Shown: one piece after another, positions 67 through 41,727 of the stretch
How positions within the stretch are numbered: position 1 is the stretch's first letter
Layout of the letters: each line of letters starts with the position of its first letter
NCBI GenBank assembly: GCA_029252805.1
Contig: JAQXAR010000005.1
Span: 1 to 57,057, forward strand
DNA from: Rickettsiales bacterium
GTDB taxonomy: Bacteria > Pseudomonadota > Alphaproteobacteria > Rickettsiales > JALZUV01
Reading direction: 5' to 3'
Length of the DNA: 57,057 bases
The notes under the pieces: model-generated
Seen by the model: the letters and a program-made list of their open reading frames with translations, nothing else
What the model was told of the DNA's origin: nothing
The model's database searches: none
Program-made: the position numbers and the translations under genes

Positions 67-402
67 ATGAAAACTTTAAAAAACCTTTCAAAGGTTACGG
101 CTGATTTCTTTAAACTTAATATTCAAATTTCTTACAAAGAAGAGGATGAGAGTTTAGCTAAAACAATTTGTGCAAATATCGAACAAATTCGCTCTCAAAG
201 ATTTTACACTTTTGACAGAGATGAAGCAGATTCTCAATCCAGCTCTATGTTTGGAGTGAGATTGAGAGCTAGCTGTTTGCATGTAAAACTTCATTTACCT
301 CTATCGCAAAAGGAGAAATTCTTAGAGATTGAGAAAGCAATTGATGCACAACTTCAAGGGATTGAGGTTTCATCTGATGCTGAAGTCCAGAAGTTGAGTT
401 GA
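67..402 (+). CDS. Hypothetical protein, AT-rich orphan next to the IS
   Basis: A 111-residue soluble protein with no signal peptide or membrane segment, which I do not recognise. It is rich in Lys, Glu, Ser and Leu. The N-terminal half looks alpha/beta and the C-terminal third (Leu-Pro-Leu-Ser-Gln-Lys-Glu-Lys) looks helical. The start lies only 41 bases inside the IS end, has no clear Shine-Dalgarno and sits in a very AT-rich stretch. The coding region is visibly more AT-rich than the rest of the window, which suggests recent acquisition or a relic of a gene displaced by the IS. It ends just before a strong hairpin at 431-457. An upstream extension lost to the IS cannot be excluded. Confidence 0.5.
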   Translation: MKTLKNLSKVTADFFKLNIQISYKEEDESLAKTICANIEQIRSQRFYTFDRDEADSQSSSMFGVRLRASCLHVKLHLPLSQKEKFLEIEKAIDAQLQGIEVSSDAEVQKLS

Positions 403-430: not shown

Positions 431-457
431 AGAGGTCGTTCCGGTGGGACGACCTCT
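431..457. terminator. Bidirectional hairpin terminator between convergent genes
   Basis: A perfect 9-bp stem (AGAGGTCGT pairing with ACGACCTCT) with a 9-base loop lies between the convergent stops of the 67-402 gene and the LytM gene. It overlaps the LytM stop codon. On the plus strand it is followed by AATTGTTT, a modest U-tract. It probably ends both transcripts. Confidence 0.65.
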
Positions 458-1229
458 AATTGTTTAGAGCGATATTTTTCGTGCCTGAGCGTTTTAAGTG
501 CTTGGCTGGGTCGATGGGTTCGCCATCTTTGCGTAAGGAATAATCTAAATGGGGGCCAGTGGAGCGCCCGGTACTGCCAACTTCGCCAATTTTTTGGCCC
601 TGGCGGACTTTTCTGCCCGGGTGGGCGGTAATTTTGCTTAAATGGCCATAGAGGCTGTAGCTGCCATCTGCATGTTCTACTTTCACATAATTTCCGAGAT
701 TTTGGTGTTGGCCAATATCGCTTACTTCGCCTTGTTCAGAGGCCAGCACGCTTGTGCCGGTCGGTGCGGCGATATCCAATCCAGCATGGAAGGCGTATTT
801 CCCGGTTACGGGATGGGTGCGATAGCCGAAAGGCGAACTGATGCGTGATTTCACATTCTCATCGACCGGCCAGATATGGTCGATTGTTTTCGAGGCAGGT
901 TTAATCGCCGTGATAAGTTCTTCTTGGGTCTGTTTGGGCTCTTGTTTTAGCGCCTCGCGTGATTCGAGTCGTTGCTCTTTAATCGGTTTCGGTTCGACAT
1001 AAGTGGGTGCGGGAAGAGGGTTTAATTGTCTGCGTAAACTAAAGAAATCTTGCCTCTCTTGCGCCAGTCTAATCGGGTCTTTGCCGCCGCCTAATCCCAT
1101 AAAATGCTTGCCGTTAATGAGGGTATGTTCCGCCGGTTTAAGTGTCATGAACTTGTTTCCTGCATGCGCAGGAATACTCGCAGCGAGTGCAAGTAGTAAG
1201 ACTGTGATGTATTTCATACAATTTTTCAT
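456..1229 (-). CDS. M23 (LytM-type) peptidase family protein with altered metal site
   Basis: A secreted LytM-domain protein of the kind that cuts peptidoglycan cross-links or activates amidases. The ATG at 1229 is preferred over an upstream one at 1298 because it directly precedes a clean Sec signal peptide (MKNCMKYITVLLLALAA, ending Ala-His-Ala). A Pro/Glu/Lys-rich linker leads to the C-terminal M23 domain. The first motif HAGLD and the middle HLSK histidine are intact. The last motif reads GPHLDY instead of GPHLHY (Asp codon GAT at 543-545), so the third zinc ligand is Asp, not His. It may be a degenerate, regulatory LytM protein like EnvC or NlpD, or a peptidase using Asp as ligand. It is divergent from the TPR gene. 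Confidence 0.85.
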   Translation of the reverse strand: MKNCMKYITVLLLALAASIPAHAGNKFMTLKPAEHTLINGKHFMGLGGGKDPIRLAQERQDFFSLRRQLNPLPAPTYVEPKPIKEQRLESREALKQEPKQTQEELITAIKPASKTIDHIWPVDENVKSRISSPFGYRTHPVTGKYAFHAGLDIAAPTGTSVLASEQGEVSDIGQHQNLGNYVKVEHADGSYSLYGHLSKITAHPGRKVRQGQKIGEVGSTGRSTGPHLDYSLRKDGEPIDPAKHLKRSGTKNIALNN

Positions 1230-1337: not shown

Positions 1338-3701
1338 ATGGATAAAAACAAGAAAAACATCCACGAATTACGTGGTTACATGGTGCCTTTATTGGCTGGA
1401 GTTGCTTTATGTGCGATCTCCTCAACAACCGTTTATGCGGATGATGCCGAGCCAGAAGTGGTGCCGGCTTATAAAATTTCTGACCAGACGTCTGGCGCGA
1501 GTCCTTATCTAAAAGATTCGCCTTATGTCGCGCGTAATCGGAAGCTGGAGGCGCAGAAAATAGCGCCGATTCGTCGCCGGCCCATGCGTTTTAGTAAGGG
1601 TGGAGCATTGCCTGCTGCGCCAAAATTTGATGATGGTTTTGGAGAGCCGCTCGTAACGGTTGGTGATGCTGTCCCTGCAGTGCTGGAGCCATTACAGCCT
1701 GCTGAGCTGGATCCCGTTTTGGAGAAATCTATCGGAGCAGGTATTCCTTCGGTTGAAACGCAAGTGGTGCCTATTGCTCTGCCAAGCGAAATTGATGATG
1801 TTGAGATGCGAAATGTTGAAATGGTTGCTCCACTTGAGATAGAGCAGCCGGTTGATGACATGGCCGAATTTGTTGAAGAGATACATCCAGTTGAAATGGA
1901 AGTTCCTTTCGAGGGAGAGTTTTCTGCCGAGGTGGTTCCCGCAATGGTGGCCGAGCCCACGGTTACTGTTCAGGCAGCAGAGGTGGAGGGGGGCGTTCCG
2001 GAATCTTTCATGGATACTATTCTTTCTGTTTTTGATAGCGAGAAAGAACCTGAAGTTAAGGCCGACATTGCGATGCCTGAAGGCTTGAGAGTGAAGCCTA
2101 TCGTGAATCCTAATCCGTCAGCGCCGATGATGGTTCGGCCTAAAGCGACGGGTCTGGGTGCGCCGTTAAAGACGATTGTGATTGAAAGAGCGCCTGAAGA
2201 GCATAGCTCAATTGAGCGGACGCGCCAGATTATCATTCCGCCGGAAATCCAAAAAATTGAACGTGAAGAGAGAATGGCGCACGCGGGGGTTCCTCCGCTA
2301 GTGCTTATGCGCGAACGGTTTCAAGAGAATTTAATAAATGTACCGCCCGTATCAAATCTCGCTTCTATTTCAAAAGAAGTTGCGAAACCAATGGCAGCCA
2401 AAATTCCTGTAGCGGCAGCTGTAGAAGAATTGCCAGAAGTTGCGGCAATTGTGGAGCAACTAGAGGAAGTGGCAACTCAGCTGCCTGAAGAACTTCCTGT
2501 AGAAGCGCTTGCTGTTGCTAGTGTGGAAATGCCATCAGAGAAACCTACTACAATTTTAGCACAAGAAGTTGTGCCTGTTGTTGAGCAAGCACCTATGCCT
2601 GTGATGTCTGAAGAGATGGCTGCTATAGAGCCTATAGTGGAGGAAGTCGCTAGCTCTTCTATTGCTGCGGTTGTGCAAGAAATTGTAGAGGAACCTGCAG
2701 CTGTTATAGCAGAACCTGTAGCCGTTGTGGCAGGAACGGTTGAAGCGTCTGAACCTGTAGCCGTTGTTACAAAAGCGCTTGAAGTGACTGAGTCTGTGCA
2801 GGAGATGGCTGCAAAGCAGGCGCCTGTGCCGGTGAAAAGTGAAGTCATTATGCAAAAGCTTCCAGGGGCTCATAAGTCTATTGCAAAGCTGAGTGATGCG
2901 AATGTGGTGATTGAAGAAGCCAAGCAAGTAGAACTCGCTAAAGAGAGCAAGATGATGCTCAGGAATTTTCCAAGCGGGCTAAATGCACCGCAAGTGAAAA
3001 TGGTTGATGAGAAAGTGGAAATTTCACGTGCGACAGTGCCTGATTTAGAAATTTCAAAACCGCTTATCAGAAAACATGAAGCATTGGGTATTTCGATCGA
3101 AATTAAAAAGCCGGATCTAAATGTGAATGATTATTTAGTCATGGCTTATGAGGCGATGCAAGGGGAGAGATTCTCTCTCGCATCGCAATATTATCAGGCT
3201 ATTTTGGATAATGATGCGAGCCACGAAGATGCAATCTTAGGGCTTGCGACGGTAAGTCATCGTCTGGGTGATAATGATACTGCGCGCGCTTTGTACCGTA
3301 AGCTTTTAATGAGCTCGCCGCGTAACACAGCGGTGCTGAATAACTTCCTTGTGCTCGTCAGCGAAGAAGCGCCTGAAAAAGCCTTGCGTGAGTTGTTGGA
3401 CTTAGAATCTAAAAACCCGCATTATGATGTTCTTCCGGCGCAACTTGCGACGATCTATGCCAATCAAGGTGACATGGAAAATGCGATCGAGAAGATCGCC
3501 CGTGCGATTGAGTTGAATCCAGAGCATTTGCTCTATCGTTATAATCTGGCGGTCATGCTGGATCATGCGGGTCAGAAGAATGAAGCGATTCAGGTTTATT
3601 CTGCAGTGAAAAGCGCGATTGAAAAAGGCGATAAAATCCCAACTGATATCTCACATATTCAGGAAAGATTAACCTTTTTACTGTCTAATCAGTCCAGCTA
3701 A
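1338..3701 (+). CDS. Secreted TPR-repeat protein upstream of pilT/pilU
   Basis: A 787-residue protein with an N-terminal signal or anchor segment (LLAGVALCAISSTTVYA, roughly residues 18-35). A long low-complexity region of about 500 residues rich in Pro, Glu, Val and Ala follows. The C-terminal ~160 residues hold tetratricopeptide repeats (for example ALLGLATVSHRLGDND-like and ATIYANQGDMENAIEKIARA units). The design resembles periplasmic or envelope scaffold proteins with a flexible Pro/Glu spacer. Only 36 bases separate it from pilT, so the three genes probably form one operon, suggesting a role in type IV pilus assembly or function. No specific family was recognised; repeat domain and export are well supported, function is inferred from context. 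Confidence 0.75.
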   Translation: MDKNKKNIHELRGYMVPLLAGVALCAISSTTVYADDAEPEVVPAYKISDQTSGASPYLKDSPYVARNRKLEAQKIAPIRRRPMRFSKGGALPAAPKFDDGFGEPLVTVGDAVPAVLEPLQPAELDPVLEKSIGAGIPSVETQVVPIALPSEIDDVEMRNVEMVAPLEIEQPVDDMAEFVEEIHPVEMEVPFEGEFSAEVVPAMVAEPTVTVQAAEVEGGVPESFMDTILSVFDSEKEPEVKADIAMPEGLRVKPIVNPNPSAPMMVRPKATGLGAPLKTIVIERAPEEHSSIERTRQIIIPPEIQKIEREERMAHAGVPPLVLMRERFQENLINVPPVSNLASISKEVAKPMAAKIPVAAAVEELPEVAAIVEQLEEVATQLPEELPVEALAVASVEMPSEKPTTILAQEVVPVVEQAPMPVMSEEMAAIEPIVEEVASSSIAAVVQEIVEEPAAVIAEPVAVVAGTVEASEPVAVVTKALEVTESVQEMAAKQAPVPVKSEVIMQKLPGAHKSIAKLSDANVVIEEAKQVELAKESKMMLRNFPSGLNAPQVKMVDEKVEISRATVPDLEISKPLIRKHEALGISIEIKKPDLNVNDYLVMAYEAMQGERFSLASQYYQAILDNDASHEDAILGLATVSHRLGDNDTARALYRKLLMSSPRNTAVLNNFLVLVSEEAPEKALRELLDLESKNPHYDVLPAQLATIYANQGDMENAIEKIARAIELNPEHLLYRYNLAVMLDHAGQKNEAIQVYSAVKSAIEKGDKIPTDISHIQERLTFLLSNQSS

Positions 3702-3737: not shown

Positions 3738-4832
3738 GTGGATATTACCGAACTTTTAATGTTCGCTCAGAAGAACAAAGCGTCAGATTTACATCTTTCG
3801 ACGGGCAATCCGCCTCTATTACGTATCAATGGCGATATGGTGGCGATGAAAATGGATGCATTGGAAGCCGATGTCGTCAAGCAACTGCTCTATTCTATTT
3901 TGACAGAAAGCCAGCGTACAAACTACGAACGTGATTTAGAGTTGGATTTTGCCATTACCTTTGGCGATGGTATGCGTTTTCGGGTGAATGCATTTAATAC
4001 GCTAGCCGGGCCTGCGGCTGTATTGCGAAGTATCCCCTCAACCATCATGTCACTTGATGAGTTAAATGCTCCGCAAATTTTAAAACGTCTGGTTGAATTA
4101 CCGCGTGGTTTGGTTCTCGTAACGGGGCCAACAGGTAGCGGTAAATCAACGACATTAGCCGCAATGGTTAATCATATTAATGAGACTTCTGCGAAACATA
4201 TTCTGACAATCGAAGATCCCGTTGAATTCATTCATGATTCAAAAAGATCATTGATCAATCATCGTGAAGTGGGGGTTTCAACCAAGTCTTTTTCACAGGC
4301 GCTGAAGAGTGCTCTGCGTGAGGACCCTGATATCATTCTGGTAGGTGAGATGCGTGATTTGGAGACGATTCAATTAGCGATGACGGCGGCAGAAACTGGT
4401 CACTTGGTGATGGGTACATTGCATACAAGCACTGCGGCTAAAACGGTGGATCGTATTATCGATGTTTTTCCTGCAGAGGAAAAAGAGATGGTGCGCGCGA
4501 TGCTTTCAGTCTCCATTGAAGCGATTGTGACGCAGACGCTTATTAAGCGTGCCGATGGAAAAGGGCGTGTTGCGGCACATGAAATTTTGATTGGAACGTC
4601 AGCCGTACGAAATTTGATTCGTGAAAATAAAATTCCACAACTTAATTCAATGATCCAAACGGGCAGTAAGTCTGGAATGATTCTGATGAAAGATGCGATT
4701 AGAAACTTGCTGGAAGAGGGGGTTATTGGTTCAGAAGAAGCACGTCGTTTATTGCTGACCGATGCAGATGAAGATAAAAATAGTGGCGGACATACGCCAA
4801 AGCCCATTACGGCTAACCCAGGGCAATTCTAA
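3738..4832 (+). CDS. pilT: Type IV pilus retraction ATPase PilT
   Basis: A hexameric cytoplasmic ATPase that powers pilus disassembly and twitching. The 364-residue length fits the family. Walker A is GPTGSGKST at residues 130-138, followed by the Asp box (TIEDPVEF), Walker B (DIILVGEMRD) and the His box (GHLVMGTLHT). The C-terminal region has the PilT-type AIRNLIRE-like motif (VRNLIREN). The start is GTG, 10 bases after a GGAG Shine-Dalgarno. The stop overlaps the pilU start by one base (TAATG). No pilin, pilB, pilC or pilQ gene is present in the window, so the rest of the machine must be encoded elsewhere. Confidence 0.93.
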   Translation: MDITELLMFAQKNKASDLHLSTGNPPLLRINGDMVAMKMDALEADVVKQLLYSILTESQRTNYERDLELDFAITFGDGMRFRVNAFNTLAGPAAVLRSIPSTIMSLDELNAPQILKRLVELPRGLVLVTGPTGSGKSTTLAAMVNHINETSAKHILTIEDPVEFIHDSKRSLINHREVGVSTKSFSQALKSALREDPDIILVGEMRDLETIQLAMTAAETGHLVMGTLHTSTAAKTVDRIIDVFPAEEKEMVRAMLSVSIEAIVTQTLIKRADGKGRVAAHEILIGTSAVRNLIRENKIPQLNSMIQTGSKSGMILMKDAIRNLLEEGVIGSEEARRLLLTDADEDKNSGGHTPKPITANPGQF

Positions 4833-6010
4833 TGAGCGAGCAAACACTGAATCGTGATGTTTTACTTCAGACCATGTTGGAGCAGCAGGCTTCGGATCTT
4901 TATATTACCGTTGGTTGTCCGGCGAGTTTTCGCTCAGAAAAAGGCATTCAAGCGATTGGTGAGCCTCTGACACGTGATATTATTTATGGCTTAATTGACG
5001 AAATTCTAACGCCGAAGCAGCGTGCGGAATTTGATGAAGTCATGGAATTTAATTCCGCTTACGGGTGGCAGGATAAAGGGCGTTTTCGTATCAATGTGTT
5101 TATGCAGCAGCATGAACCGGGTATGGTGATTCGCCGTATCAACACCGTCATCCCAACTTTTGAAGATCTTAATCTAGGGGAGGCCTATCGAGATTTAGTC
5201 ATGCATAAGCGTGGTCTTGTATTGGTTGTGGGGCCCACAGGTTCAGGAAAATCTTCGTCATTAGCGGCGATGATTGGGCATCGTAATGAAAAGGGATCAG
5301 GCCATATTATTACCGTCGAGGATCCGATAGAGTTTCAACATTCGCATAAGGGCTGTATCGTGACCCAGCGCGATGTGGGGATTGATACGGCCTCTTTTGA
5401 GGCTGCTTTGAAGAATGCGCTACGTCAACGTCCAGATGTCGTGTTGGTCGGAGAAATCCGCGATAGGGATACGATGGAACATGCGATTAACTTTGCGGAG
5501 ACGGGGCATTTGTGCCTTGCGACGCTGCATGCGAATAACTGTCCGCAAACGATTGAGCGTATCCTCAGTTTCTTCCCAGAAGAAAAACACCGTCAGGTGC
5601 AGATGAATTTAGCATTGAACCTGAAGGGAATTCTTTCGCAACGTTTGGTCAAGAACCGTATGGGAGGTCGTTGTATTGTGAGTGAGGTTATGCTTAATGA
5701 AGGTCTCATTCGCGAGCTTATTGAAGAAGGTAACGTGAAGGAAATGCGCCAAGTGATGGAGCGTAATAGCGACATTGGTATGCAGACATTCGATCAGGCA
5801 TTGTTGGCGCGTTATATCCGCGGCGAAGTGACAGAGGAAGTGGCTTTGGCGGAATCAGATAACCCGCAAAACTTGAAACTGAAAATGAGGCAAGCAGCGG
5901 GCGCGGTTACGACGGCAGGTCTCGTAAATGCTGCTAATGTGAGTCCTACTAATAATACCGAAGATAGTAGCGACGGCGGTGGCGCGGCCAGGCATCATTT
6001 AGAAATTTGA
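4832..6010 (+). CDS. pilU: PilT-like ATPase PilU
   Basis: A paralogue of the preceding PilT and the accessory retraction motor that works with it. It is 392 residues long, with Walker A GPTGSGKSS around residues 134-142, Asp box TVEDPIEF, Walker B DVVLVGEIRD and His box GHLCLATLHANN. The C-terminus has a Gly/Ala/Asn-rich tail instead of a PilT-style end, typical of PilU. It is translationally coupled to pilT by the TAATG overlap. Its last 12 bases overlap the convergent DUF1294 gene. The pilTU pairing is classic in gammaproteobacteria and less common in alphaproteobacteria. Confidence 0.9.
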   Translation: MSEQTLNRDVLLQTMLEQQASDLYITVGCPASFRSEKGIQAIGEPLTRDIIYGLIDEILTPKQRAEFDEVMEFNSAYGWQDKGRFRINVFMQQHEPGMVIRRINTVIPTFEDLNLGEAYRDLVMHKRGLVLVVGPTGSGKSSSLAAMIGHRNEKGSGHIITVEDPIEFQHSHKGCIVTQRDVGIDTASFEAALKNALRQRPDVVLVGEIRDRDTMEHAINFAETGHLCLATLHANNCPQTIERILSFFPEEKHRQVQMNLALNLKGILSQRLVKNRMGGRCIVSEVMLNEGLIRELIEEGNVKEMRQVMERNSDIGMQTFDQALLARYIRGEVTEEVALAESDNPQNLKLKMRQAAGAVTTAGLVNAANVSPTNNTEDSSDGGGAARHHLEI

Positions 6011-40230: not shown

Positions 40231-41727
40231 TTGACGGATAGGTTAGGGCGCTTTGATAAAGAGCGCATTGAAAAGATGTTACGAAAAGCAGATGGCTCGT
40301 TAAATGACGCCGCCTTCATGGGTGTTGGCGCTGTGTTCAGCGCGATGTTGATGGTGGTGACATTGTCGATTGCGACTTTAGAACAGTCAGGTGCTGTGAT
40401 GGAGATGGAATTCGCTGATTCGCAAGAAGCGGTAGCCGAAGAACAAACCGTCAATATCCGTGATGCGCTGGTTGCGGCGTGGAAGAATCTCGAGCTAAAA
40501 GATCCTATCCAGCAGACGACAGTAACCGAAGAAGTAATAGAAATTACTGCAGATGAGATAGCCGCCCAGGCCGTGCCGGCGGCACCAGAAATTATTTATC
40601 CCGTTGATGAAAAATTGAGCGTGAAAGTTAACTCTGGCGATACGATGGCTGAGATTTTTCAGCGTCAGAATATTGGTATTGATGATACAAATTTGATCAT
40701 TAAAGCGATGAAGAAGCATTTTAATCCGCGCAATATTCGTGTTGGGCAGACGTTTGATTTAGAGCTAACACGCCAGTCGGCAGAAAAGTCGATCCTTACT
40801 AAATTTGAAGTCAAAACTGGTAAGTTGACGCATGTAGAGGTCTTGCTAAAGGGTGAAACGTTTGCGGCTAAAAAAATCACGGTCGAAACGAATAAGCAGA
40901 TTGCGCGTGCCGGTGGAGTCATTAGTTCTAGCTTCTATGAAGCCGGTGACGATGCAGGCTTGCCGCGTGCGATTACCTCGGAGCTTGTGAAAGCCTACAG
41001 TTACGATATTGATTTTGGTCGCGATATTAAGCCGGGCCAAACGCTTGACGTATTGTTCGAGCAATTAGTATCGAAAGATACAGGTGAAGTAGTCGGGCAT
41101 GGGGATCTCAAATATGCGGCTTTCAAGTTGAAGACCAAGCCGGTTGAGATTTACAAATACACCGATCGCAAAGGCAATACCGGATATTACAAACCTAATG
41201 GTGAGTCTGTGCGAAAAGCACTCCTGAAAACGCCAGTAAATGCGCGTATCTCTTCGAAATTTGGAATGCGTAAACACCCTATTTTAGGCTATTCAAAAAT
41301 GCATACGGGTATCGATTTTGCTGCCCGTAGTGGCACGCCCATCTATGCGGCAGGCGATGGCCAGATCAATTATGCAGGTCGCAAGGGTGGTTACGGTAAT
41401 TACATTAAAATCAAACATAATGGTAAATACGAAACCGCTTATGCGCATATGAAAAATTTTGCTAAAGGCATGCGTAATGGCCGTCGCGTCAAGCAGGGCC
41501 AAGTGATTGGTTATGTTGGATCTACCGGGCGTTCTACGGGCCCTCATTTGCATTATGAGATCCTCAAAAGCGGCAAACGTATCAATCCGAATGGTGCAAA
41601 ATTCCGCACGGGTCGTGTGTTGAAAGGCAAAGACTTGGTGGCTTTCAAAAAAGAAAAAACCAAGCTGAAAAACCAGTTAGCGGCGCTTCCAAGGATTCGC
41701 GAACAAGTCGCCCAAGCGAGCGAGTAA
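40231..41727 (+). CDS. M23 peptidase with LysM-like (OapA) domain
   Basis: A MepM/CsD3-like peptidoglycan endopeptidase of 498 residues. The start is TTG, eight bases after a GGAG; a later ATG at 40276 would remove the conserved-looking amphipathic N-terminus. One transmembrane anchor (VFSAMLMVVTLSIAT), then an OapA/LysM-like segment (VKVNSGDTMAEIFQRQNI), and the C-terminal M23 domain with all zinc ligands: HTGIDFAAR, AYAHMKN and GPHLHYEI. Unlike the LytM protein at 456-1229, this site is intact. A four-base gap separates it from ruvC. Confidence 0.9.
   Translation: MTDRLGRFDKERIEKMLRKADGSLNDAAFMGVGAVFSAMLMVVTLSIATLEQSGAVMEMEFADSQEAVAEEQTVNIRDALVAAWKNLELKDPIQQTTVTEEVIEITADEIAAQAVPAAPEIIYPVDEKLSVKVNSGDTMAEIFQRQNIGIDDTNLIIKAMKKHFNPRNIRVGQTFDLELTRQSAEKSILTKFEVKTGKLTHVEVLLKGETFAAKKITVETNKQIARAGGVISSSFYEAGDDAGLPRAITSELVKAYSYDIDFGRDIKPGQTLDVLFEQLVSKDTGEVVGHGDLKYAAFKLKTKPVEIYKYTDRKGNTGYYKPNGESVRKALLKTPVNARISSKFGMRKHPILGYSKMHTGIDFAARSGTPIYAAGDGQINYAGRKGGYGNYIKIKHNGKYETAYAHMKNFAKGMRNGRRVKQGQVIGYVGSTGRSTGPHLHYEILKSGKRINPNGAKFRTGRVLKGKDLVAFKKEKTKLKNQLAALPRIREQVAQASE

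Follow-up and report, generated by a model that had tools for sequence, protein, structure and literature searches.

The window analysed here (the whole 57,057-nucleotide stretch, which is contig 5 of a Rickettsiales genome) carries at positions 456-1229 a gene, lytM-HxD, whose M23/LytM-type product has aspartate at the place taken in active M23 enzymes by the third zinc-ligand histidine. We consider it probable that this secreted HxD-subtype protein is still able to bind a divalent metal and to cleave peptidoglycan. The replacement is ancient and conserved, and in most cases a second residue next to the metal site differs as well; this suggests a modified but functional enzyme and not an error or a dead copy.

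The lytM-HxD gene and its product

The features of the window on which the comparison is built are as follows.

456-1229, minus strand: lytM-HxD gene, coding for a signal peptide, a low-complexity N-terminal part with a repeated F-x-x-L-like motif and a C-terminal M23/LytM domain
507-791, minus strand: M23/LytM domain (Pfam match region), whose predicted fold agrees with solved M23 domains
540-557, minus strand: GPHLDY motif, with the Asp229 codon GAT (543-545) at the position of the third zinc-ligand His of active M23 enzymes
537-539, minus strand: Ser231 codon (ligand +2), a position holding Glu or Gln in 162 of 168 His-type intact-site domains
40231-41727, plus strand: paralogue with canonical HxH (GPHLHYE), MepM/ShyC-like with a Csd3_N2 domain, used for comparison only
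67-402, plus strand: open reading frame of 111 residues at the contig edge, without Pfam or NCBIfam match

The reading frame opens with ATG at 1229 and its stop codon ends at 456, giving a product of 257 residues which begins MKNCMKYITVLLLALAASIPAHAG and whose signal peptide, judged by eye, is MKNCMKYITVLLLALAASIPAHA with cleavage before G. The match to PF01551 (113.1 bits against a Pfam cut-off of 28.7) places the product in the M23/LytM family by homology, and it is one of six M23 matches in its own genome (G000, 2.19 Mb in 63 contigs). Numbered from Met = 1, its active-site residues are H148 and D152 (HAGLD), which form the H(x)nD pair of catalytic M23 proteins, H196 in YGHL, which is the further catalytic His some 30 residues ahead of the HxH, and H227 and D229 in GPHLDY; the HxH itself, whose second His is a zinc ligand, is lacking, as the protein reads H227-L-D229. 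According to the available part of PMC4594094, LytM binds its metal by H210, D214 and H293 and activates water by H260 and H291; lytM-HxD keeps the counterparts of H210, D214, H260 and H291, and Asp stands at H293.

Re-reading of the sequence bore out the initial annotation on GPHLDY with GAT at 543-545, on the normal His of the paralogue and on the otherwise intact M23 site, since H148, D152, H196 and H227 are all kept. Its description of a single-base change holds as a comparison of codons (GAT and CAT), but the change is old and is accompanied by Ser at +2, where His-type domains usually have Glu.

Residues 26-67, which follow the signal peptide, contain a short motif that is repeated in the orthologues (KFMTL, DFFSL and RFFAL are examples); it occurs 17 times, in 9 of 9 proteins, compared to 0.6 occurrences expected in shuffles, although the pattern was chosen post hoc. 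This N-terminal motif might serve to bind a partner.

Asp at the last ligand is conserved in orthologues

The lytM-HxD protein was used to search 55 genomes of the order, 52 of which gave some M23 match. The closest among the matches listed (G001, G035, G013, G005 and G028, 53-63% identical over the stretch matched) have HLD without exception, and a more distant orthologue, in G046, reads GAHLDY. A scan of named genomes yielded six further loci (L067-L072), all six with Asp, although three of the six duplicate proteins already among the closest matches from the order. This shared identity makes the window's organism a relative, within one genus, of 'Rickettsiales bacterium isolate g2_MAG_00008', an uncultured alphaproteobacterium. 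Asp therefore stands at the last-ligand position in 10 of the 10 orthologues read, nine of which were aligned (the tenth being that of G046), and H148, D152, H196, H227 and D229 are invariant across the alignment of nine. Against a same-genus orthologue the M23 part gave dN 0.22 and dS 1.6, hence dN/dS of about 0.13, with dS near saturation.

GAT and CAT are one base apart, and the initial annotation had raised a sequencing error at 543-545, which was expected to show itself by His in close orthologues. All ten orthologues have Asp instead, at the same place in proteins of other genomes that are 37-63% identical overall, and the +2 residue departs from the usual one as well, so a sequencing or assembly error was rejected and we regard its likelihood as negligible.

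Asp and other replacements of the last His within the order

For the order as a whole, 120 further matches of the same search were fetched, chosen by similarity to the window protein from the matches listed only, giving 156 M23 domains, or 150 when contained ones are left out. His occupied the last-ligand position in 113 of the 150, and 89 of these had the other four residues intact. Asp was found in nine, eight of them with the other four intact, while another residue or a gap was found in 28, none of which had the other four intact. Loss of the last His to residues other than Asp accompanies loss of the remaining site, and its replacement by Asp does not. The ninth Asp domain (L275, G024:C4:118097-118621) reads E-H-G-V-D, a shifted Hx2D, together with FPHLD, and its metal motif is thus doubly altered.

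HxD recurs in other M23 groups

Asp with the rest of the site intact was also found in a YGSQR...PHLD[WF] family from Alpha- and other Pseudomonadota (L055-L058, L147, L149-L160 and L232), in which all the members found by HLD patterns have Asp, with Arg at +2. Further such domains came from L037, two Clostridia (L073 and L097), Alkalibacterium (L126) and viral contigs (12 domains). One viral Asp-type domain, L306, has Asn in place of the first ligand His.

A tree of 145 domains, from which the last-ligand column was withheld and on which gains and losses are indistinguishable, requires seven changes of the Asp state, at least three of them being forced by branches with support of 95 or more. 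A tree of 212 domains gave 14 changes with two forced, the latter number being small because 116 columns resolve few forks. It is likely from these trees that Asp arose repeatedly in M23 proteins, with the number of origins uncertain.

The pattern GPHLD[YF] occurred class-wide at 40 places in 39 of 385 genomes, and of the 30 loci read six were M23 domains (L037, L055-L058 and L060, the last being the window), while the other 24 were rejected as chance matches, in other proteins or outside an M23 reading frame; a reversed control pattern also matched, so this tally is no count of HxD enzymes. A tighter pattern matched in 14 of 299 genomes, and all 14 loci, the window's own included, were M23 domains. 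Among relatives on plasmids and phages no Asp-type domain was found in the eight regions read, six of which have HxH and two of which have the first ligand His replaced (Cys in L340, Asn in L342).

The residue two positions after the ligand covaries with it

Across 192 distinct intact-site domains (160 His-type, 32 Asp-type), the position two residues after the last ligand (+2) was the column most strongly associated with ligand identity: Glu stands there in 141 of 160 His-type domains (and Gln in 14), compared to none of 32 Asp-type domains (Fisher P = 1.7e-23, uncorrected for kinship). With viral domains added (212 intact-site domains), Glu or Gln was found in 162 of 168 His-type domains (Glu 148, Gln 14) and in 1 of 44 Asp-type domains, where the +2 residues are Arg (23), Ser (10), Lys (4), Thr (2) and Ile, Gly, Val, Asn and Glu (one each). 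The search patterns that brought in the Asp-type domains left +2 open; the counts include near-copies, such as L309 and L329, twice, and 18 of the 44 Asp-type domains belong to one family.

The association is not phylogenetically independent. Kinship-corrected comparison left four pairs with the starred branches (three for, none against and one tie) and two pairs on the larger tree (about one for, none against), too few for significance in either case, the independent pairs being few because the M23 domain is short. The cleanest matched case is in Alkalibacterium subtropicum (L126), where sister M23 genes (3-1007 and 1906-3357, both on the plus strand, about 0.9 kb apart, support 98) read HLHFE in one and HLDFK in the other. 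There are exceptions on both sides: His-type domains without Glu at +2 occur in the YGSQR family (Gly in L206, Asn in PDB 2HSI) and in two of six HxH relatives from plasmids and phages (L341 Gly and L344 Thr, both from plasmids), and among viral Asp-type domains L327 has Glu at +2 and the partial domain L299 has Gln.

The +2 residue corresponds to Glu113 of EnpA, to which the zinc ligand His111 is bound according to the available text of PMC8269130. A neutral His with a backing carboxylate resembles an Asp alone in the charge that it offers to the metal, and so the pair looks to have been exchanged as a unit. We read this, from the sequence comparison, as a coupled switch from HxHxE to HxDx(S/R/K) that would retain a metal site.

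Apparent permuted M23-like domains in phage proteins

In some viral proteins the M23 motifs stand in permuted order, GxSTGPHLD coming first, then TSPYG...HxGxD and then the third His. The following were recognised by motif order.

L302, 218-835, minus strand: apparent circularly permuted M23/LytM domain
L330, 1-1326, plus strand: apparent circularly permuted M23/LytM domain
L332, 331-1134, plus strand: apparent circularly permuted M23/LytM domain
L333-L337, plus strand: apparent circularly permuted M23/LytM domains, a near-identical set
L299, 3171-3479, plus strand: apparent permuted domain, cut before its last part
L346 and L347: apparent permuted domains at further loci

The permuted viral domains do not vary in their HLD and HxGxD residues, and most of them are Asp-type with Arg, Ser or Gln at +2. 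Pfam M23 scored over its cut-off in one of the four permuted proteins scanned (L330, 41.8 bits). Searches by tblastn with two permuted proteins returned 24 and 25 records, nearly all from Acinetobacter phages, and of the ten matches listed for each query most carry an annotation as tail tape-measure or tail protein. The permuted order was also found in both named records read, Acinetobacter phage YMC11/11/R3177 (HLDVR) and cyanophage S-TIM54 (HAHIE), where once more Glu at +2 accompanies His and is absent beside Asp. Phage tail proteins thus appear to carry circularly permuted M23-like domains, a case of which was not found among the best matches to a single query of the open-access literature.

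Predicted fold and comparison with known M23 proteins

In a model predicted from the nine orthologues, ten-residue blocks between residues 121 and 240 have pLDDT values of 86-97, and the best structural matches of the model were M23 chains (Z 12 to 20.4, the next fold being at 8.8), as expected of a LytM fold. The model is without metal and resembles solved active and inactive M23 domains alike, so that it cannot decide activity. There was no Asp-type chain from the PDB among the best three or five alignments of each search. NCBIfam models of active endopeptidases gave the highest scores, ShyA 108.5 bits (cut-off 700) and MepM 95 bits (341), followed by the regulators DipM (71 and 69 bits, cut-offs 900 and 740), EnvC (49 bits, 270) and NlpD (40 bits, 311), all of these scores being under cut-off.

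With the M23B DD-endopeptidases ShyA, MepM and NMB0315/Mpg, lytM-HxD shares the M23 domain, Hx3D, YxH and the first His of HxH, and ShyA, NMB0315 and the gonococcal enzyme are 45-49% identical to its domain over the Foldseek alignment; it differs from them in having HxD in place of HxH, Ser in place of Glu at +2 and no Csd3_N2 domain by Pfam. EnvC, NlpD, DipM and Csd2 have the same fold and likewise an altered metal motif, but the first three are without several active-site residues and in Csd2 another ligand is changed, whereas in lytM-HxD, with four of the five residues kept in the nine aligned orthologues, only the last is changed, and to Asp, itself a possible ligand. The YGSQR...PHLDW family, which comprises relatives of Pseudomonas PDB 2HSI, is like lytM-HxD in combining HxD with four intact residues, with Arg at +2, but forms a clade apart on the domain tree (support 99), and 2HSI itself has His (HMHW).

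Zincins offer examples of a swapped third ligand. The Asp-zincins have had this ligand swapped within one superfamily, going by the available part of PMC3890501, although their fold is unrelated to that of lytM-HxD and they serve as precedent only. The EnpA catalytic domain has the Hx3D/HxH ligand layout found in lytM-HxD, and its His111-Glu113 contact, as far as the source available to us describes it, locates the second shell; unlike lytM-HxD, EnpA has both the His and the Glu.

Gene neighbourhood and the type IV pilus

Next to lytM-HxD, and divergent from it, lies a group of three genes.

1338-3701, plus strand: divergent neighbour gene, whose product has a signal-peptide-like start, a long repetitive region and C-terminal TPR repeats
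3738-4832, plus strand: PilT-family type IVa pilus ATPase (TIGR01420, 469 bits, cut-off 319)
4832-6010, plus strand: second, PilU-like PilT-family ATPase (TIGR01420, 408 bits)

The repeat region of the 1338-3701 product is very long and rich in Pro, Val and Glu, and the gene is kept with PilT and PilU across families while evolving fast (31-42% identity). Among the lineage's loci, eight have flanks long enough for comparison (G000, G001, G005, G013, G028, G035, G046 and L068), and in all eight lytM is divergent from TPR-PilT. PilU comes after PilT in the seven whose sequence extends that far (partly so in G035), that of L068 ending within PilT; the upstream flank of L071 is too short for the arrangement to be read. 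L072, from a Rhodospirillaceae bin outside the order sample, has neither the TPR nor the PilT neighbour within 3 kb. PilT-family matches over cut-off were present in 34 of the 55 relatives and lytM-HxD was found in seven, so pili do not require lytM-HxD. The window's own genome also encodes a PilB-like ATPase (490 bits, below the 676-bit cut-off) and secretin-like proteins below the PilQ cut-off.

The gene is in this way linked to pilus genes, as would be expected of a pilus-associated M23 protein of the Mpg kind. Gonococcal Mpg is an M23 enzyme that serves pili and is needed for full piliation, going by the accessible part of PMC11980366. By analogy, the neighbourhood suggests that lytM-HxD may help a type IV pilus to pass the cell wall.

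Proposed working and alternative readings

For lytM-HxD we infer metal binding, catalysis, substrate and pilus link alike, as follows. A divalent metal (Zn2+ or another) would be held by His148, Asp152 and Asp229, with His196 and His227 still activating water. The imidazole would have been lost together with its buttressing Glu (HxHxE to HxDxS here, HxDxR or HxDxK elsewhere), with the net charge around the metal staying much the same. The enzyme would then cut stem-peptide cross-links in the periplasm as a DD-endopeptidase, so opening the peptidoglycan locally for the PilT/PilU pilus machine encoded beside it.

The initial annotation had left the choice between a dead regulator and a protein that binds metal through Asp. 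The four kept residues, the recurrence of HxD and the covariation at +2 favour Asp in a retained site, although a conserved non-enzymatic role keeps a minor but real share of the likelihood. Under that alternative Asp would abolish metal binding or catalysis, and the domain would bind peptidoglycan or a partner (an amidase or a pilus part), as in EnvC, NlpD and DipM. Degenerate LytM regulators are well known (available parts of PMC8416486 and PMC9662197), and substituted sites have been found empty: in H. pylori Csd2, whose first ligand His is replaced by Glu and whose remaining ligands are both retained, no zinc was bound and the crystal contained no metal (PMC5053510, in the part available), so there a carboxylate in place of another ligand left the site unfilled, and LytM structures substituted at the motif lack Zn (PMC8416486, likewise in part). 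A conserved pseudoenzyme is for these reasons still to be reckoned with, and the repeated N-terminal motif could be its means of binding a partner; EnvC and DipM rank high in the structure comparison, but the fold is common to active and inactive members. Against a pseudoenzyme, the other four residues survive in 8 of 9 order domains with Asp and in 0 of 28 with other replacements, His227 and His196 are kept in all nine aligned orthologues, and the best-scoring curated models, albeit under cut-off, are those of active endopeptidases.

It is improbable, though a little less so than an error in the sequence, that the protein is an active enzyme which uses a metal other than zinc (Mn, Fe or Co) or has been adapted to hold its metal less tightly. 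The one-His two-Asp ligand set is shared with histone deacetylases, whose catalytic site of this kind accepts Zn or Fe. Exchange of the metal has a strong effect on the activity of M23 enzymes, Co in LytU being an example (PMC9662197, as far as its available text goes), but the lytM-HxD sequence gives no pointer to which metal would be bound.

Returning to the reading of lytM-HxD as a working enzyme with Asp in its metal site, its extension to the family is more tentative, at somewhat under even chances: bacteria and phages may repeatedly have reached a second, catalytically competent design of the M23 metal site, combining His-Asp-Asp ligands with a rearranged second shell (HxDx[S/R/K]). Titles and the starts of abstracts in the open-access literature, from which subscription journals are mostly absent and which are thus weak evidence on this point, yielded neither an Asp-ligand class of M23 proteins nor an experiment on HxD. 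The HxH motif is the current means of sorting active from regulatory M23 proteins, and if HxD proteins work then this rule fails for a recurrent group; if they are inactive, they would be pseudoenzymes that oddly preserve the rest of the site. The paired difference in ligand and second shell offers a direct test of zinc-site rewiring. If the design proposed here is real, motif-based annotation that takes absence of HxH for degeneracy would be giving the wrong label to a class of functional cell-wall hydrolases, among them one linked with a type IV pilus module.
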